DNA of 26,119 nucleotides from Candidatus Poribacteria bacterium (lineage in GTDB: Bacteria > Abyssobacteria > SURF-5): NCBI GenBank assembly GCA_016215705.1, contig JACRIR010000036.1, forward strand, positions 1 to 26,119, written 5' to 3'. The translations under genes and the position numbers were made by a program. The notes below the pieces were generated by a model. It had not been told where the DNA came from and did no database searches. It saw only the letters and a list, made by a program, of their open reading frames with translations. Of this stretch, positions 13,236-19,980 are shown piece by piece (the first letter of the stretch is position 1; every line of letters begins with the position of its first letter).

Positions 13236-14645
13236 ATGCGCTGTCTAGCTCGGCTACCGGTTTTGCTCCTTGGACTCCAGGTCTTTTTTGCGTGCGCGCA
13301 CTACCCCGCAAACAAGAGGGTTGAGAGCGTTGATATGGTCGCACAGCCGAGAGCGGCCAGTCCGGAGAGTTCGGATGATCTGTTGCTCATTCTGGCATTC
13401 TCCGGCGGAGGAACCAGGGCGGCCGCTCTTTCCTATGGAGTGCTCGAGGCGCTGGCACAAGCCAAGATTCCGGGTTCGGCATATGCCCTCGACGCTCACA
13501 ACGGCGAAAGCGAGCGCAGGCTGCTGGATGAGGTCGATATCATCTCGTCCGTGTCCGGCGGAAGTTTCACTGCGGCCTATTATGGACTGCACAAAGATCG
13601 CATATTCGAGGATTTCCCGCGCCGTTTCCTTTACCGCGACGTGAATCGGGGCCTCATCCGGCAGGCACTCTCGCCCATCAATGTGTTGCGACTGGCCAAT
13701 CCGGGTTTTGGGACGAGCGACCTGGCAGCGGAATACTACGACAGAATCCTTTTCGACGGGGCGACGTTTGGCGCGCTGCAAAAGCAGGATACCCCGACCC
13801 TTTTCATCCAGGCGACTGACATCGTCGATGGAATCTATTTTGGGTTCACTCCATACTATTTCTCGCTGCTCTGCTCCAATCTGGATGACTACCCTATCTC
13901 ACGCGCCGTGGCTGCTTCTGCGGCGTTCCCGGGACCATTCAACGCGATCACTCTCCGCAATTACGCAGGCGCGTGCGGGTTCGAGGAGGAGCCGTGGATG
14001 ATCGAGGCGCTTCAGAAGCGCGACACCACGAGCCGCCTATTTAACACGGCCAATCATCTGCACACCTATCTCGATCCGGAGAAGAAAGCCTTTGTCCACC
14101 TCGTGGATGGCGGTGTCGCCGACAACCTCGCTTTAAGGGGTCCCCTCGAGATGATCATGATTCGCGGCGGCATCAAAGGAGTATTCGGAGACATGCATGG
14201 CAGGAAGACTCGTCGGGTTGCTTTTATTATAATAAATGCCGAAAAGAAGCCTCAGACCGTTTATGGACTATCGAGCCAGGGGCCGGGGCCGCTTGGAATA
14301 ATAGGTATCACGTCGTCTGTGATGATCAGCAGTTACAACTATGAGACGTTGGAACTCCTGCGCAGCTACATAAGAGAGTGGTCGGATGAAAGCCGGCGTC
14401 TGAACGGCAACGCTCAAGCGATCGAGTTCTATGAAATCGAGGTGGGCTTCAATGCCCTGCCTACCGAAGAAGAACGTGCGCGCTTCTCGAGTATACCGAC
14501 GACTCTTAGTCTTCCGAGGGAAACCGTGGACGACTTGCGCGGAGTCGCCGGCAGAATTCTCTATGACTCGGAGGAGTTTCAAAGACTGCTGCACGACCTC
14601 GGCGGCGAAATCCCGGTCTCTCATTCCATGAACCCGTCCCGCTAA
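13236..14645 (+). CDS. Patatin-like phospholipase, predicted lipoprotein
   Basis: A 469-aa protein. The signal MRCLARLPVLLLGLQVFFAC ends in a lipobox-like FFAC (Cys20), predicting an exported lipid-anchored protein. The patatin core shows FSGGGTRAAALSYGVLEAL (oxyanion loop GGGTR, 57-61), the nucleophile elbow SVSGGS with Ser107 (a Ser-for-Gly variant common in this subgroup) and the catalytic Asp291 in DGGVADN. The Ser-Asp dyad predicts acyl-hydrolase/phospholipase A activity, probably at the periplasmic face or outer membrane. ATG 13236 is preferred because it starts the signal peptide; a GTG at 13170 gives an unlikely extension, although the ribosome-binding site for 13236 is weak (AAGGA about 13 nt away). 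It leads the same-strand run with the C39, TPR and small-protein genes. Confidence 0.88.
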   Translation: MRCLARLPVLLLGLQVFFACAHYPANKRVESVDMVAQPRAASPESSDDLLLILAFSGGGTRAAALSYGVLEALAQAKIPGSAYALDAHNGESERRLLDEVDIISSVSGGSFTAAYYGLHKDRIFEDFPRRFLYRDVNRGLIRQALSPINVLRLANPGFGTSDLAAEYYDRILFDGATFGALQKQDTPTLFIQATDIVDGIYFGFTPYYFSLLCSNLDDYPISRAVAASAAFPGPFNAITLRNYAGACGFEEEPWMIEALQKRDTTSRLFNTANHLHTYLDPEKKAFVHLVDGGVADNLALRGPLEMIMIRGGIKGVFGDMHGRKTRRVAFIIINAEKKPQTVYGLSSQGPGPLGIIGITSSVMISSYNYETLELLRSYIREWSDESRRLNGNAQAIEFYEIEVGFNALPTEEERARFSSIPTTLSLPRETVDDLRGVAGRILYDSEEFQRLLHDLGGEIPVSHSMNPSR

Positions 14646-14780
14646 CACATATTCCGCAGTCGGCGGCTATTGCAAACGGCACGGTCATAATGTATGCTTG
14701 TACAGGTCGTGGAAGGCACAGGCAATTGAGTCCAGCGTGTCGAGTTTCGGATTGGACCGGAGGAAAGGAAACAGAGTTTA

Positions 14781-15416
14781 ATGCGCGTGCGCGCATTGTG
14801 GATTCTTGCGGGTTTCCTGCTTATTGTGGCCGGATGCAGCGCTACAGGCTATCAAAGAATCGGCAACGGGCATGCCCACGAGCTATCCTGCGAGGACATT
14901 TCTTTATCGCCCGGAAAGGACCCTGCCTGCGGCCCTCAAGCCCTCGCGCAGATATGCAAATTCTGGGGAATCGAGGTGGATGAACAGGACCTGCTGAATC
15001 AGACTCTGGGCGATGAGAGCGACGGCTCACGGCTTGGAACCCTCCGGGAGTGGGCGCAGGGGCATGGGCTCGAGGCGCAACTCTATCACGGCTCGCCGCA
15101 GGACCTCGCCGAGAAAGTCGCCGCCGGGATGCCGGTGATTGCCGTTCTGGATGTCAATCGGTACCCTGAGCTTCCCAATCCGCTGGTCCGAAAGAACTTC
15201 TGGGGGCATGCCGTCGTGGTCGCCGGGTTCGATGATGAGTCCCGGCAAGTGATTCTGTGCGACAGCGGAAAAACTGCAAGAATGTCCTACGGCAGTTTCT
15301 TCAGAGATTGGAAAGCCGCTGAATGGGTGACCCTGCTGGTGTGGCCCGGCGACACTGCTTTGTCCACGGAGACACGGTTGGACCCCGAAGCCGCAAGCAG
15401 AGATTTGGCGCGATGA
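14781..15416 (+). CDS. C39-like cysteine peptidase lipoprotein (PA2778-like)
   Basis: A 211-aa protein with a lipoprotein signal ending LIVAGC (Cys19). The mature part is a papain-like C39 domain: PACGPQALAQICKFWG gives the catalytic Cys50, and FWGHAVVVAGFDDES followed by ILCDSG gives His143 and Asp161. C39 domains of ABC exporters cut double-glycine leaders; free lipoprotein versions such as the PA2778 family have no proven substrate. Length fits a stand-alone domain, whereas PA2778-type proteins, as I recall them, also carry TPR repeats, here encoded by the next gene. AGGAAAGGA precedes ATG. The stop codon TGA is the loop of a GGCGCGA-TGAA-TCGCGCC palindrome, so the C-terminus may have been set by repeat insertion. 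Confidence 0.85.
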   Translation: MRVRALWILAGFLLIVAGCSATGYQRIGNGHAHELSCEDISLSPGKDPACGPQALAQICKFWGIEVDEQDLLNQTLGDESDGSRLGTLREWAQGHGLEAQLYHGSPQDLAEKVAAGMPVIAVLDVNRYPELPNPLVRKNFWGHAVVVAGFDDESRQVILCDSGKTARMSYGSFFRDWKAAEWVTLLVWPGDTALSTETRLDPEAASRDLAR

Positions 15417-15472
15417 ATCGCGCCCCTACAAAGGTTTAGTGTATGTCCGGAGGGCCACAATTCGTTGCGCCC
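15407..15472. repeat. Composite GGGGCGCAAT-family repeat (copy B), overlapping the C39 stop codon
   Basis: Two palindromes in tandem: GGCGCGA-TGAA-TCGCGCC (15407-15424) and a decayed GGGCCACAATTCGTTGCGCCC (15452-15472). The part 15417-15472 aligns without gaps with 5031-5086. It contains the stop codon of the C39 gene (15414-15416). Confidence 0.8.
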
Positions 15473-15555
15473 TTGTATTCAGCCAATTTCTGCCAAGATG
15501 GCGGGCGGGAATCACCACAGGAATTCAAGAGGCTGGAGGTAAGCCACACAAAGGA

Positions 15556-16242
15556 ATGGAAGAAAGTAAAGTCTCTCGGAGAACCTGGCGGCCCTTGTGG
15601 CAGGGGTTACGCTTTGGCTGTGACTGTGCCGCACTATGTTTACTATTAATGACGGCGGCAGGTTGTGCCCGTGTTCCCTATAGAGTCGCGATTCCTGAAA
15701 GAGAAGGCGTTCAGCCTGCGGGCAAATCCGCAACAGCGGCAGATCATAATAAGGTGGGTGTAACTTATGAGTCAGCCGGCCAGTACGAGAAGGCAATCCG
15801 AGCGTACCGAAAATCTCTAGTCCTGGAACCGGAGAACCATGTTGCTCGTACAAACCTGGGAAATGTTCTTGGCAAACTATGCCATTTTGATAAGGCAGAA
15901 GAATGCTACCGCGATGTTCTGGCGAAAGACCCCGAAAACCTTGCGGCCATGAACAACCTGGCCTGGCTGCTTGTTTCCACCGGCGACACCCGGGAGTGCG
16001 AGGAAGGGATCAAGTTTGCCGGCAAATGTCTTTCGCTTGCTGAGAAGGCGGCCCCCGGCATACGTCCTTCTCTTCTGGACACGCTTGCGTGGGGCAATTA
16101 TCGGCTTCAGCGTCAATCCGAAGCCCTTCGGCACGCTCGGTTGGCCGCCGATTTGCTTGGGGAAGAAGAACTGAAAAATAACCCGTTGATTTGGGGGCAT
16201 TACCGTACAATTGTTGGGATTCAAGGCCGATGGGCGCAATGA
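15556..16242 (+). CDS. TPR-repeat lipoprotein
   Basis: A 228-aa protein. A 36-residue leader with a hydrophobic stretch ends LLLMTAAGC (Cys37), a lipobox, so export and lipidation are likely. About four TPR units follow (roughly 62-95, 96-129, 130-165 and 172-205), the clearest being YEKAIRAYRKSLVLEPEN and FDKAEECYRDVLAKDPEN. TPR arrays bind partner proteins; the partner may be the C39 lipoprotein encoded 139 nt upstream (inference). ATG 15556 is chosen because it gives a plausible signal; AAAGGA is adjacent and GGAGG is 15 nt away, so the start is only fairly sure. An upstream frame from 15439 runs through repeat DNA and is discarded. The TGA stop is in the centre of a CGCAA-TGA-ATTGCG palindrome. 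Confidence 0.83.
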   Translation: MEESKVSRRTWRPLWQGLRFGCDCAALCLLLMTAAGCARVPYRVAIPEREGVQPAGKSATAADHNKVGVTYESAGQYEKAIRAYRKSLVLEPENHVARTNLGNVLGKLCHFDKAEECYRDVLAKDPENLAAMNNLAWLLVSTGDTRECEEGIKFAGKCLSLAEKAAPGIRPSLLDTLAWGNYRLQRQSEALRHARLAADLLGEEELKNNPLIWGHYRTIVGIQGRWAQ

Positions 16243-16251
16243 ATTGCGTTC
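16232..16251. repeat. GGGGCGCAAT-family palindrome overlapping TPR stop codon
   Basis: CGCAAT-GA-ATTGCG with partly conserved GGG/TTCC flanks. The stop codon TGA (16240-16242) is at its centre, as in the C39 gene upstream. Confidence 0.75.
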
Positions 16252-16369
16252 CTATGGAGACGCATCAAGAAATGCGGACGTATTCTTGGACACTAACCCT
16301 GAACATGGAACCGTTTTTGCTAGGAGCAGCAGACCACGGCGGAGCGTGGTTAATCGAGAAAGTGGTACG

Positions 16370-16414
16370 CCTTAATTCGGGGACACGATGCAGCATCGTG
16401 TCCCCGAATTAAGG
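16370..16414. repeat. GGGGACAC-family palindrome (copy 4)
   Basis: Perfect 22-bp arms (16370-16391 and 16393-16414) around one A; core TTAATTCGGGGACACGATGC. Longest perfect palindrome of the family in the window. Confidence 0.93.
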
Positions 16415-16477
16415 GAACCATAGCTGGCTTCCCAGTCCTCATTTTCACGAATACGATGACGTATCCGCTCAACCTCC

Positions 16478-16506
16478 GTAGGGGCGACCCGTCGGGTCGC
16501 CTCTAC
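16478..16506. repeat. GTAGGGGCGACCC palindrome
   Basis: Arms GTAGGGGCGACCC (16478-16490) and GGGTCGCCTCTAC (16494-16506), one mismatch, spacer GTC. This is a palindrome type I know from intergenic DNA of many unrelated bacteria. Confidence 0.85.
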
Positions 16507-16552
16507 AAAATACGCTATAGGATTTAGGAAACTGACTGCTTGGGAGGTGATG

Positions 16553-16608
16553 TTGGCAACCACAAAACGGTTTTGGCAACCGGAAATCAACGAGGTTAGT
16601 CATATAAC
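16553..16608 (+). promoter_or_regulatory. Possible activator sites and -10 box before the first small gene
   Basis: TTGGCAACC occurs twice in direct orientation (16553-16561 and 16573-16581), 20 bp apart, about two helical turns. TATAAC (16603-16608) could be a -10 box with no good -35, so the nearer repeat would lie around -36. Suggestive only. Confidence 0.35.
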
Positions 16609-16632
16609 GGGCACAACTAAAGGAGGAAGAAG

Positions 16633-16917
16633 ATGCCTAAGAATTCCGTCGCCGCTATGTTGGCTTTGGTTATGCTTCTTACAGCCCTCGTGTCGCCGTG
16701 CATAGCTGCTCCAATCGCTTCGTCAACAGGGGCCGAGGAAGGCGGGAAGGTCGCAACTCAACCGACTGTCTCAAGTCCCTCGGCTACGCCTGCCGAAACA
16801 CAAGAAATGGATGAGACAGTTGTCGGCGAATTGGTTCAGGGAATCACAAATACTCAGCTTGTTGTAGGCGGTCTTGTTGTGATTCTTTTGGTGGCGGTAA
16901 TTGTGGCGGCATCCTGA
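16633..16917 (+). CDS. Small exported protein with C-terminal membrane helix, paralogue 1 (PA2779-like)
   Basis: A 94-aa protein with three parts: a signal peptide (residues 1 to about 25, ending CIAA), a Ser/Thr/Ala/Pro-rich linker with an acidic EMDETVVGE stretch (about 26-70), and a strongly hydrophobic C-terminal helix (VVGGLVVILLVAVIVAAS, 77-94). AGGAGGAAG just before ATG is a strong ribosome-binding site. The layout matches PA2779-type small proteins that neighbour PA2778-type C39 peptidases, although sequence similarity cannot be proven by eye. The next gene encodes a paralogue with the same layout. A Val-Gly-Gly precedes the helix core, but the paralogue lacks Gly-Gly, so a classical C39 double-glycine leader is not supported. 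Function unknown. Confidence 0.8.
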   Translation: MPKNSVAAMLALVMLLTALVSPCIAAPIASSTGAEEGGKVATQPTVSSPSATPAETQEMDETVVGELVQGITNTQLVVGGLVVILLVAVIVAAS

Positions 16918-17023
16918 TCGCGGGCGGATGATCCCGCGGCGCCATGTGATGTTTGCGAAAGAAACGGGATAAGGAACGAATAGGTTCACCCCACAGATAT
17001 GGGATTTTCGGGGGGAGTTGGGT

Positions 17024-17041
17024 TTCCCGCTTTCGCGGGAA
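17024..17041. repeat. TTCCCGC/GCGGGAA hairpin tag
   Basis: Arms TTCCCGC and GCGGGAA around TTTC, followed by TGACA. This is the common GGATTCCCGCTTTCGCGGGAATGACA-type intergenic tag, here between the two small-protein genes. Confidence 0.75.
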
Positions 17042-17125
17042 TGACAAGAAGAAGCGAGAATGACGAAAAGAAATGGAAATGACAAAGAGTACTGGAAAGG
17101 ATGAAAAGGAAAGGGGGATGCTCAA

Positions 17126-17401
17126 GTGAAACACAGAGTCCTGTCTTTAGCCATGATACTGATTATGCTGATCCCGACGTCGGCCATTTTCGCGGCCCCG
17201 CTGGTATCGCAGCCTGCAGAGACCAATAACAACCAGATGGAAAAGGGCGATGTGCAATCGCTTTCCGGGCCGGACACGCCGGGGCTCAGCCGGGATCAGC
17301 AGCAAATCGAGTCGCTGCAGGTCGGCGAGATAAGCGAGAACGCATTGTGGATAGGACTGGGAATCGTAGTCGTGCTGGGAATCGTGCTTGTCGCATCATG
17401 A
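17126..17401 (+). CDS. Small exported protein with C-terminal membrane helix, paralogue 2 (PA2779-like)
   Basis: A 91-aa protein with a signal peptide (MKHRVLSLAMILIMLIPTSA then IFAA), a polar linker rich in Gln/Asn/Glu (about 26-70) and a C-terminal hydrophobic helix ending GIVVVLGIVLVAS. The AAPxxSxxA after the signal and the VAS ending are shared with the product of the preceding gene, so the two look like diverged duplicates. The start is GTG at 17126, with GGGGG 8 nt upstream; an ATG at 17118 opens only a three-codon frame overlapping it. Probably sits in the inner membrane with the linker outside. Partner or substrate of the C39 lipoprotein is a reasonable guess, not shown. Confidence 0.78.
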   Translation: MKHRVLSLAMILIMLIPTSAIFAAPLVSQPAETNNNQMEKGDVQSLSGPDTPGLSRDQQQIESLQVGEISENALWIGLGIVVVLGIVLVAS

Positions 17402-18757: not shown

Positions 18758-18800
18758 AGAAAAATGGGGACACGATGCCGCATCGTGTCCCCATTTTTCT
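18758..18800. repeat. GGGGACAC-family palindrome (copy 5), terminator-like
   Basis: Perfect 21-bp arms (18758-18778 and 18780-18800) around one C, with A5 on one side and T5 on the other, so both directions give a GC-rich hairpin followed by a short U tract. It lies in the convergent gap between thiolase and PEGA genes and overlaps the last two bases of the PEGA stop codon. Confidence 0.92.
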
Positions 18801-19980
18801 AGTCGATTGCCTGTATTCTCCATTGGGACTTGCCGGTCTTGGTGAGTGTGAACTTCTGGTCGGCGTCGAGGAAAGTGACCGAACGGCCTGTCTCGGTAAG
18901 TGTGCCGGACATTTTGCGGTGAAGAGCCAGCACAACGCGATCCCCGGCGTTATCCTGCACTCTCACGGATGAATGCGATTCGGTAATGTTGTCAAATTCA
19001 CTGAACAGATTCTCCGCTTTCTCCCTCTGTCTTCGGACGAATGCGGTATCGGATTGATCCAGTAATGAAACAAATGCCCCCACGTTTTCTTCTTGCATCG
19101 CTGTTTTCAGGGAAGTGAGCAGGCGCTGAGTCTGCTCGGCAAGAGTGGGCGTCTTCGCCTTCGTCATTTCCATCTTAACCTTCAGAGACGTCATTGCGTT
19201 GTTCCAGCAGACGGCTTTGCGTTCGACCGGCTTATAGCCATCCTTCTTGAGGAGGACCTTGTGTTCGCCTGCCGGCAATCGCCGGAGAACGAGCGGAGTG
19301 ACACCTTCTTCGACACCATCCAGGAACACCTTTGCTCCGTTGGGATTCGACCTTATCTTCAGATCGCCAAGTCTCGGCTGTTCGGGTTCGAGGGCTTCTT
19401 GAGTATTACCGGCGCGAGCATCATCGCTGTCAGTTGCCTGTGGATCAGAGGCGGGTTGCTGTGTTTCATCGGTCACGGTTGCTCCGGAAGCTTCAGATGC
19501 AAGCGTCTGTGACTCCGGTGTTGCAGACACGGGTGTCTCAGACACGAGTGTCCCGGACCCGGGTCGCGCGGATTCACTGTTTTCGGTCCCTGTCAGCGGC
19601 GCCTGTTCGGCGGAAGGAGAGGCATACCCGGCGTAAACGTTTGGGTCAGGTGTGCGACGAGATTGTGTCTCCGCCAGGGTGGAGCTTGTGTAAAGCTTCG
19701 CAAACAAAGCGTAGAAAGCCGAAAACAGGACGACATAGATAGTGACGGCAGTAAGGAAAGTGAATATGCGCTGGCGCGGCTGGCATCCATAAACGTACGA
19801 CATGATGTCGTGAGTGCTGCGCAGCCTCGCGGCGTCATTCCCCCGGAGTCTGTCTTCGGCCTTGATGGGGGAGCGGGAATCCTTTTTATCAAGTCTGACC
19901 TTGGGCTTTGGACGTCCAGGTTTATGAGGAAGTGCGACTTCTGGCTTTGTCGGTTTGCCGGATGAGATACTTGTAGTCAT
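18799..19980 (-). CDS. PEGA-domain membrane protein
   Basis: A 393-aa protein. The N-terminal 71 residues are basic and Pro/Lys-rich, then one hydrophobic helix (about 73-94, FTFLTAVTIYVVLFSAFYAL) anchors it, followed by a Ser/Thr/Glu/Pro-rich linker (about 98-203). A PEGA domain follows at about 205-270 (IRSNPNGAKVFLDGVEEGVT, then LPAGEHKVLLKKDGY), a small beta fold typical of surface proteins. The last 110 residues contain a helix pair and a beta segment ending GKSQWRIQAID, resembling NTF2-like domains. Function unknown; the linker and anchor suggest a periplasmic arm on the inner membrane. The linker DNA contains repeated GACACnnGTGTC-type motifs encoding SETPVSATPESQTL. GAGAGG lies 5 nt before ATG; the promoter is probably at 20044-20073. 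TAG overlaps the 18758 palindrome. Confidence 0.85.
   Translation of the reverse strand: MTTSISSGKPTKPEVALPHKPGRPKPKVRLDKKDSRSPIKAEDRLRGNDAARLRSTHDIMSYVYGCQPRQRIFTFLTAVTIYVVLFSAFYALFAKLYTSSTLAETQSRRTPDPNVYAGYASPSAEQAPLTGTENSESARPGSGTLVSETPVSATPESQTLASEASGATVTDETQQPASDPQATDSDDARAGNTQEALEPEQPRLGDLKIRSNPNGAKVFLDGVEEGVTPLVLRRLPAGEHKVLLKKDGYKPVERKAVCWNNAMTSLKVKMEMTKAKTPTLAEQTQRLLTSLKTAMQEENVGAFVSLLDQSDTAFVRRQREKAENLFSEFDNITESHSSVRVQDNAGDRVVLALHRKMSGTLTETGRSVTFLDADQKFTLTKTGKSQWRIQAID

Follow-up and report, generated by a model that had tools for sequence, protein, structure and literature searches.

Do the five exported proteins encoded one after another in this stretch of DNA form a single envelope system, and what would a C39-type peptidase do among them? 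The stretch, hereafter the window, comprises 26,119 nucleotides (nt) from a Candidatus Poribacteria bacterium and is one entire contig (JACRIR010000036.1) of a 5.47-Mb draft genome in 270 contigs. Its genes at 14781-17401 encode a C39 peptidase lipoprotein, a tetratricopeptide repeat (TPR) lipoprotein and two small exported proteins, and this set is a divergent, rearranged copy of the PA2778/PA2779-type module, a new version of a module type that is known but uncharacterised. With a confidence slightly better than even, we propose that the C39 lipoprotein cuts the small proteins next to the membrane, that the TPR lipoprotein serves for docking, and that the patatin-like phospholipase encoded immediately upstream is separate. 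The module type is already known, and what is new here is a second family of small partner proteins, which is called VITASDAGGG after its motif. The four genes of the set are listed below, with signal peptides and helices assigned on the basis of hydropathy and motifs.

14781..15416, + strand: C39-type cysteine peptidase lipoprotein, N-terminal half of PA2778 (Pfam C39_2, PF13529, E=1.5e-10; lipobox VAGC)
15556..16242, + strand: TPR lipoprotein, C-terminal half of PA2778 in a gene of its own (Pfam TPR_2, 5e-18, and several other TPR models; lipobox AAGC)
16633..16917, + strand: small exported protein 1, 94 amino acids (signal peptide, acidic segment of about 40 amino acids, C-terminal helix)
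17126..17401, + strand: small exported protein 2, 91 amino acids, paralogue of protein 1 (signal peptide, C-terminal helix, juxtamembrane VGEISENALWIG)

The five plus-strand open reading frames (ORFs), the patatin gene included, were confirmed at the coordinates given here, and all have exported-protein features; the lipoboxes of the three lipoproteins, the signal peptides and the C-terminal helices were found as the initial annotation had described them. Against the NCBIfam model NF033920 (C39_PA2778_fam), the C39 protein aligned to model positions 4-155 (54.3 bits) and the TPR protein to positions 153-250 (35.1 bits), which are complementary halves of the model, the C39 domain and the TPR region being carried by adjacent genes. 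The cut-off of this model (150 bits, for the whole protein) was reached by neither window protein, and other split members also fall under it, for instance with 111 bits in genome G125. Judged by these alignments, the two genes together are the two halves of PA2778, and the resemblance to the PA2778/PA2779 locus that the initial annotation had noted is borne out as far as the type of module is concerned.

The coupling of C39 genes to small genes was examined in 80 named C39 loci, obtained by scanning a single genome of each species and spanning Nitrospirota, Myxococcota, Pseudomonadota, Thermodesulfobacteriota, Aquificota and others. Of the 73 loci with enough sequence, 71 have a PA2779-like gene immediately upstream of the C39 gene, at a median gap of 17 nt; in the background set, a comparable small ORF preceded another gene in 2/132 cases. 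These upstream small proteins score well on NF033919 (PA2779_fam) and Pfam DUF6627. In 68 of the named loci a downstream gene of its own carries the TPR part, which is fused in 6 loci and was undetected in 4; two to four tandem small genes occur in 5/80, and tandem copies are also found in G249, G354 and G115. The separate TPR gene and the duplicated small gene, which the initial annotation had singled out, are thus present but not distinctive: the former is the usual form outside Pseudomonas, the latter recurs in other loci, and neither is a peculiarity of this genome. In a Rhodospirillales bin (L141, 508-2206), a fused C39-TPR gene is preceded upstream by four PA2779-family genes in tandem. 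As well, in the phylum of G354, a variant small protein with a signal peptide, a helical domain, a FAAG motif and a C-terminal helix is encoded upstream of a short exported C39 (L199 902-1297, L200 1031-1447, L201 839-1405 and L205 2043-2453).

A second type of partner was recognised in five genomes (G115, G252, G417, G466 and G529), where small proteins of 66-78 amino acids encoded after a C39-TPR gene carry an invariant VITASDAGGG before the C-terminal helix. Their genes are tandem in G115 and G529, and their position is mostly downstream of C39-TPR. When two members were compared with the models of Pfam-A and NCBIfam, none of the curated cut-offs was exceeded, and by sequence comparison these proteins are a new partner family without a curated family model. 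When the family was searched alone in 324 genomes (317 + 7), six strong matches were found outside the training set, in G639 (two), G663, G671, G679 and G701, and 6/6 lie beside a C39 gene; a weak match in G695 (E=8e-4) had no C39 gene nearby. Because all of the strong matches adjoin C39 genes, the association between C39 and small proteins is independent of the DUF6627 domain, and co-occurrence of small genes with C39 beyond this genome, as the initial annotation had proposed, holds for both families. Two phylum-level groups contain members of the VITASDAGGG family beside C39-TPR genes. What unites the partner types is the signal peptide, a juxtamembrane motif that contains Gly, and the helix at the C terminus, while the middle domain is present in some and missing from others. 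Loci of this family include L222 (4010-4243), L221 (2631-2867), L223 (2175-2780), L052 (4887-5316) and L054 (7127-7327), and further ones are L225, L228, L229, L230, L233 and L234.

The window C39 is predicted to have the double-glycine-peptidase (C39) fold. A Foldseek search with its AlphaFold model (predicted TM-score, pTM, 0.71) placed it nearest to the peptidase domains of PCAT1 (E 2.8e-8), LahT150 (2.7e-7) and ComA, with E values from 2.8e-8 to 3.4e-7 for the three and TM-scores of 0.74-0.78 on target length, and a family profile of the C39 relatives matched the same structures (PCAT1, LahT and ComA). In a tree, the protein sits on a long branch (3.1), its nearest relative is 32% identical and its placement was not resolved; a contig scan of the genomes with the window C39 alone as query gave no matches.

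The two window small proteins are paralogues, as had been claimed, since their global alignment score of 59 (shuffle mean 8) was reached by 0/2000 segment-preserving shuffles. Their relation to PA2779 is more distant. They matched neither NF033919 nor DUF6627 (and protein 1 no other NCBIfam or pertinent Pfam model), reaching no cut-off and having no middle helical domain, while hydropathy and neighbourhood give them the signal peptide, the C-terminal helix and the linkage to a C39_PA2778 gene that PA2779_fam/DUF6627 proteins have. A hidden Markov model (HMM) of about 90 PA2779-like proteins scored both above all 301 real decoys (about 11 bits for protein 1 and 10.3 bits for protein 2). The two decoy sets are of modest size (56 and 301 proteins), and that of 56 also contains copies of the window proteins and genuine members of the family. 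Pairwise alignment to the PA2779 proteins of G354 gave z values of about 4.7 (protein 1) and 4.5 (protein 2), compared with about 2 or less for unrelated small exported decoys; PA2779 members, for example those of G139 and G249, fall in the same range as the window proteins. Clear membership in PA2779_fam or in the VITASDAGGG family was unsupported at the HMM level, and the decoy-calibrated pairwise alignment against G354 was the only comparison with a clear signal; the window small proteins are probably shortened, distant PA2779/DUF6627 relatives. An AlphaFold model of one PA2779 protein consisted of low-confidence helices (pTM 0.24) and was not used.

According to the mechanism that we propose, the C39 and TPR lipoproteins would both reside on the extracytoplasmic side, where the TPR lipoprotein may act as a scaffold that aids docking or organisation of the peptidase. 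In each small protein, the cut by C39 would fall close to the AGG/VGG/VGE motif, a short way outside the membrane, and would free the N-terminal segment, about 40 acidic residues in the window, from the hydrophobic tail. The proposal is supported by the coupling of C39 genes to genes for small proteins with a signal peptide and a C-terminal helix (71/73 loci, with the 2/132 background), by the match of fold and profile to peptidases that cut at GG motifs, by the strong VITASDAGGG matches that all adjoin C39 genes, and by the features common to the partner types. It is further supported by two drafts of the same family (G001 and G002, 98% and 91% complete), in which C39, the small-protein genes and an orthologue of the TPR lipoprotein are all absent, their TPR matches being unrelated TPR proteins only; sisters without C39 are thus also without its partners. 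In addition, a PA2779-family gene of P. stutzeri belongs, by expression, to the top 3% of genes (PMC10155442), as would be expected if its product were a substrate or a structural protein. The nearest experimental parallel is the periplasmic C39 peptidase FapD, discussed below. The literature searched assigns no function to PA2778, PA2779 or DUF6627.

Cleavage of the small proteins by C39 is plausible from these comparisons, and several observations weigh against it. The oxyanion Gln45, kept in 58/61 relatives, is Gly in the window C39, and the column of the ComA/LahT catalytic Asp is Ser in 52/61 family members, the window protein having an Asp one residue earlier; because the Gln is gone and Ser mostly occupies the Asp column, the activity of the window enzyme may be weak or lost. 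The juxtamembrane GG of the PA2779 family is not invariant (VGKD, VAKG and AGQS are also seen), and the window small proteins carry VGE or QGIT in its place; a strict GG cleavage motif was ruled out as a family-wide rule, as the second Gly varies. The homology of the window small proteins to PA2779 is weak, with 1/200 shuffles of protein 2 beating its HMM score and shuffles reaching 10.7 bits. Finally, 390 nt with a dispersed repeat separate the window small genes from the C39-TPR pair.

The altered active site and the variable GG motif would also suit a C39 that is a pseudo-enzyme or scaffold and binds the small membrane proteins uncut, the latter anchoring or regulating the lipoprotein-TPR complex. 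The window protein departs from its relatives at four more positions conserved in >90% of them, and non-catalytic C39-like domains are known, as in some type 1 secretion systems, and are mentioned in one report (PMC5557850). We nevertheless regard this explanation as rather unlikely, given that Cys50 and His143 are invariant in 61/61 sequences, window included, and that FapD, a periplasmic C39 peptidase of unknown target, requires its active-site Cys for Fap (amyloid) secretion (PMC5557850). The enzyme might instead be active on something else, such as a cell-wall peptide or a secreted protein, with the small proteins being incidental, highly expressed envelope proteins of the same operon. C39-fold relatives do include peptidases with other targets, e.g. 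the pseudomurein endoisopeptidase PeiR, which was among the structural matches. However, linkage that extends across several phyla and at least two small-protein families, with strong VITASDAGGG matches only beside C39 in the genomes searched, makes such an incidental association improbable. The initial annotation had put forward another possibility, namely that patatin, C39 and the small proteins work together at the surface as a single lipase-protease system, and had placed the patatin at the head of the set.

13236..14645, + strand: patatin-like phospholipase lipoprotein (Pfam PF01734, E=7e-15; lipobox Cys20)

The patatin gene is on the same strand as the C39 gene, at a gap of 135 nt, and its product has a PF01734 domain with a Ser-Asp dyad, the nucleophile motif SVSGGS and the DGG of the dyad being read directly. 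The lipobox is FFAC, and the orthologues have SAGC (G002) and SSC (G001) at the same place. Nevertheless, no patatin relative was found near C39 genes in the 80 named loci (flanks up to 6 kb per side, with at least 5 kb on both sides for 48 of the 80), nor in 18 further C39 loci, and both sisters keep a patatin orthologue (62-63% identity) without the module and in different neighbourhoods. The joint lipase-protease system is therefore largely refuted and hardly credible, the patatin was rejected as a member of the system, and we judge it an independent neighbour of the C39-TPR-small module. Failure to co-occur with C39 elsewhere, by which the initial annotation proposed to judge its grouping, is what was found for the patatin gene and not for the small genes. 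The contig is unlikely to be foreign to the genome bin, because patatin orthologues occur in the sisters and the dispersed repeat is common to the genome.

The preferred reading, cleavage of the small proteins by C39, can be set beside known systems. Like the PA2778/PA2779 locus (NF033920, NF033919 and DUF6627), the window encodes together a C39 lipoprotein, a TPR part and a small partner with a signal peptide and a C-terminal helix. It differs in its order (C39-TPR-small-small, whereas the known order is small-C39-TPR), in the separate C39 and TPR genes, which are common outside Pseudomonas, and in small proteins without the DUF6627 helical domain, scores under the curated cut-offs and the lost oxyanion Gln. 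The VITASDAGGG loci of the ten genomes named above are alike in having reduced small proteins beside a C39-TPR gene, but C39 and TPR are fused there and the window proteins lack the VITASDAGGG motif. In the functional amyloid system of Pseudomonas, FapD is likewise an exported stand-alone C39 peptidase, for which no TPR partner or small membrane protein has been described. The peptidase domains of PCAT1, LahT and ComA are the nearest solved folds and share the Cys-His catalytic pair; unlike the window lipoprotein, which would lie outside the cytoplasm, they are cytosolic-side domains of ATP-binding cassette (ABC) exporters with a Gln-Cys-His-Asp site and cut leader peptides. GlyGly-CTERM/rhombosortase offers a resemblance only, with exported proteins, a Gly motif, a C-terminal hydrophobic stretch, tail processing and a basic end also found in DUF6627 types; rhombosortase is an intramembrane rhomboid with many substrates, whereas the C39 lipoprotein here would have one or few dedicated partners.

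Genes of the PA2778/PA2779 type, which are spread over at least five phyla, have so far been an orphan annotation. Tentatively, exported C39 lipoproteins and their TPR partner could be a widespread system dedicated to maturing small proteins anchored in the membrane. Its partners would be of at least three types (DUF6627, VITASDAGGG and that of the window) with no more in common than the signal peptide, the juxtamembrane Gly motif and the C-terminal helix. This would be double-glycine-type processing outside the cytoplasm and without an ABC exporter, a possibility that we rate somewhat short of even. That small partners of different sequence but common features travel with the same exported C39 raises a testable question, namely whether the neighbour is cut, and where.

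The arrangement of the window genes also departs from that of other loci. The intergenic gaps across the five genes are, in order, 135, 139, 390 and 208 nt, the last three of which, within the C39-TPR-small-small order, are wide beside the 17-nt median that separates PA2779 from C39 genes elsewhere. The 390-nt gap contains the following repeat:

16370..16414, strand not assigned: dispersed 22-nt palindromic repeat, repetitive extragenic palindromic (REP)-like, a perfect inverted repeat between the C39-TPR genes and the small genes

Owing to these gaps and the palindromic repeat inside the longest one, the five genes are no tight operon. The palindrome is built on CTTAATTCGGGGACACGAT, whose half-sites number 308 in the genome, often as facing pairs, while the reversed control pattern gave 0. 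A simple promoter scan of the window did no better than shuffles, and a simple terminator scan found weak terminator-like sites only. The window genes examined included no Fap genes. A PEGA-domain protein (window 18799-19980, - strand) is encoded next to a thiolase gene, and the rest of the contig carries metabolic genes, including those for an amidohydrolase, a sulfatase, an acyl-CoA dehydrogenase, a lactate racemase-like protein and an alpha-amylase with CBM20.

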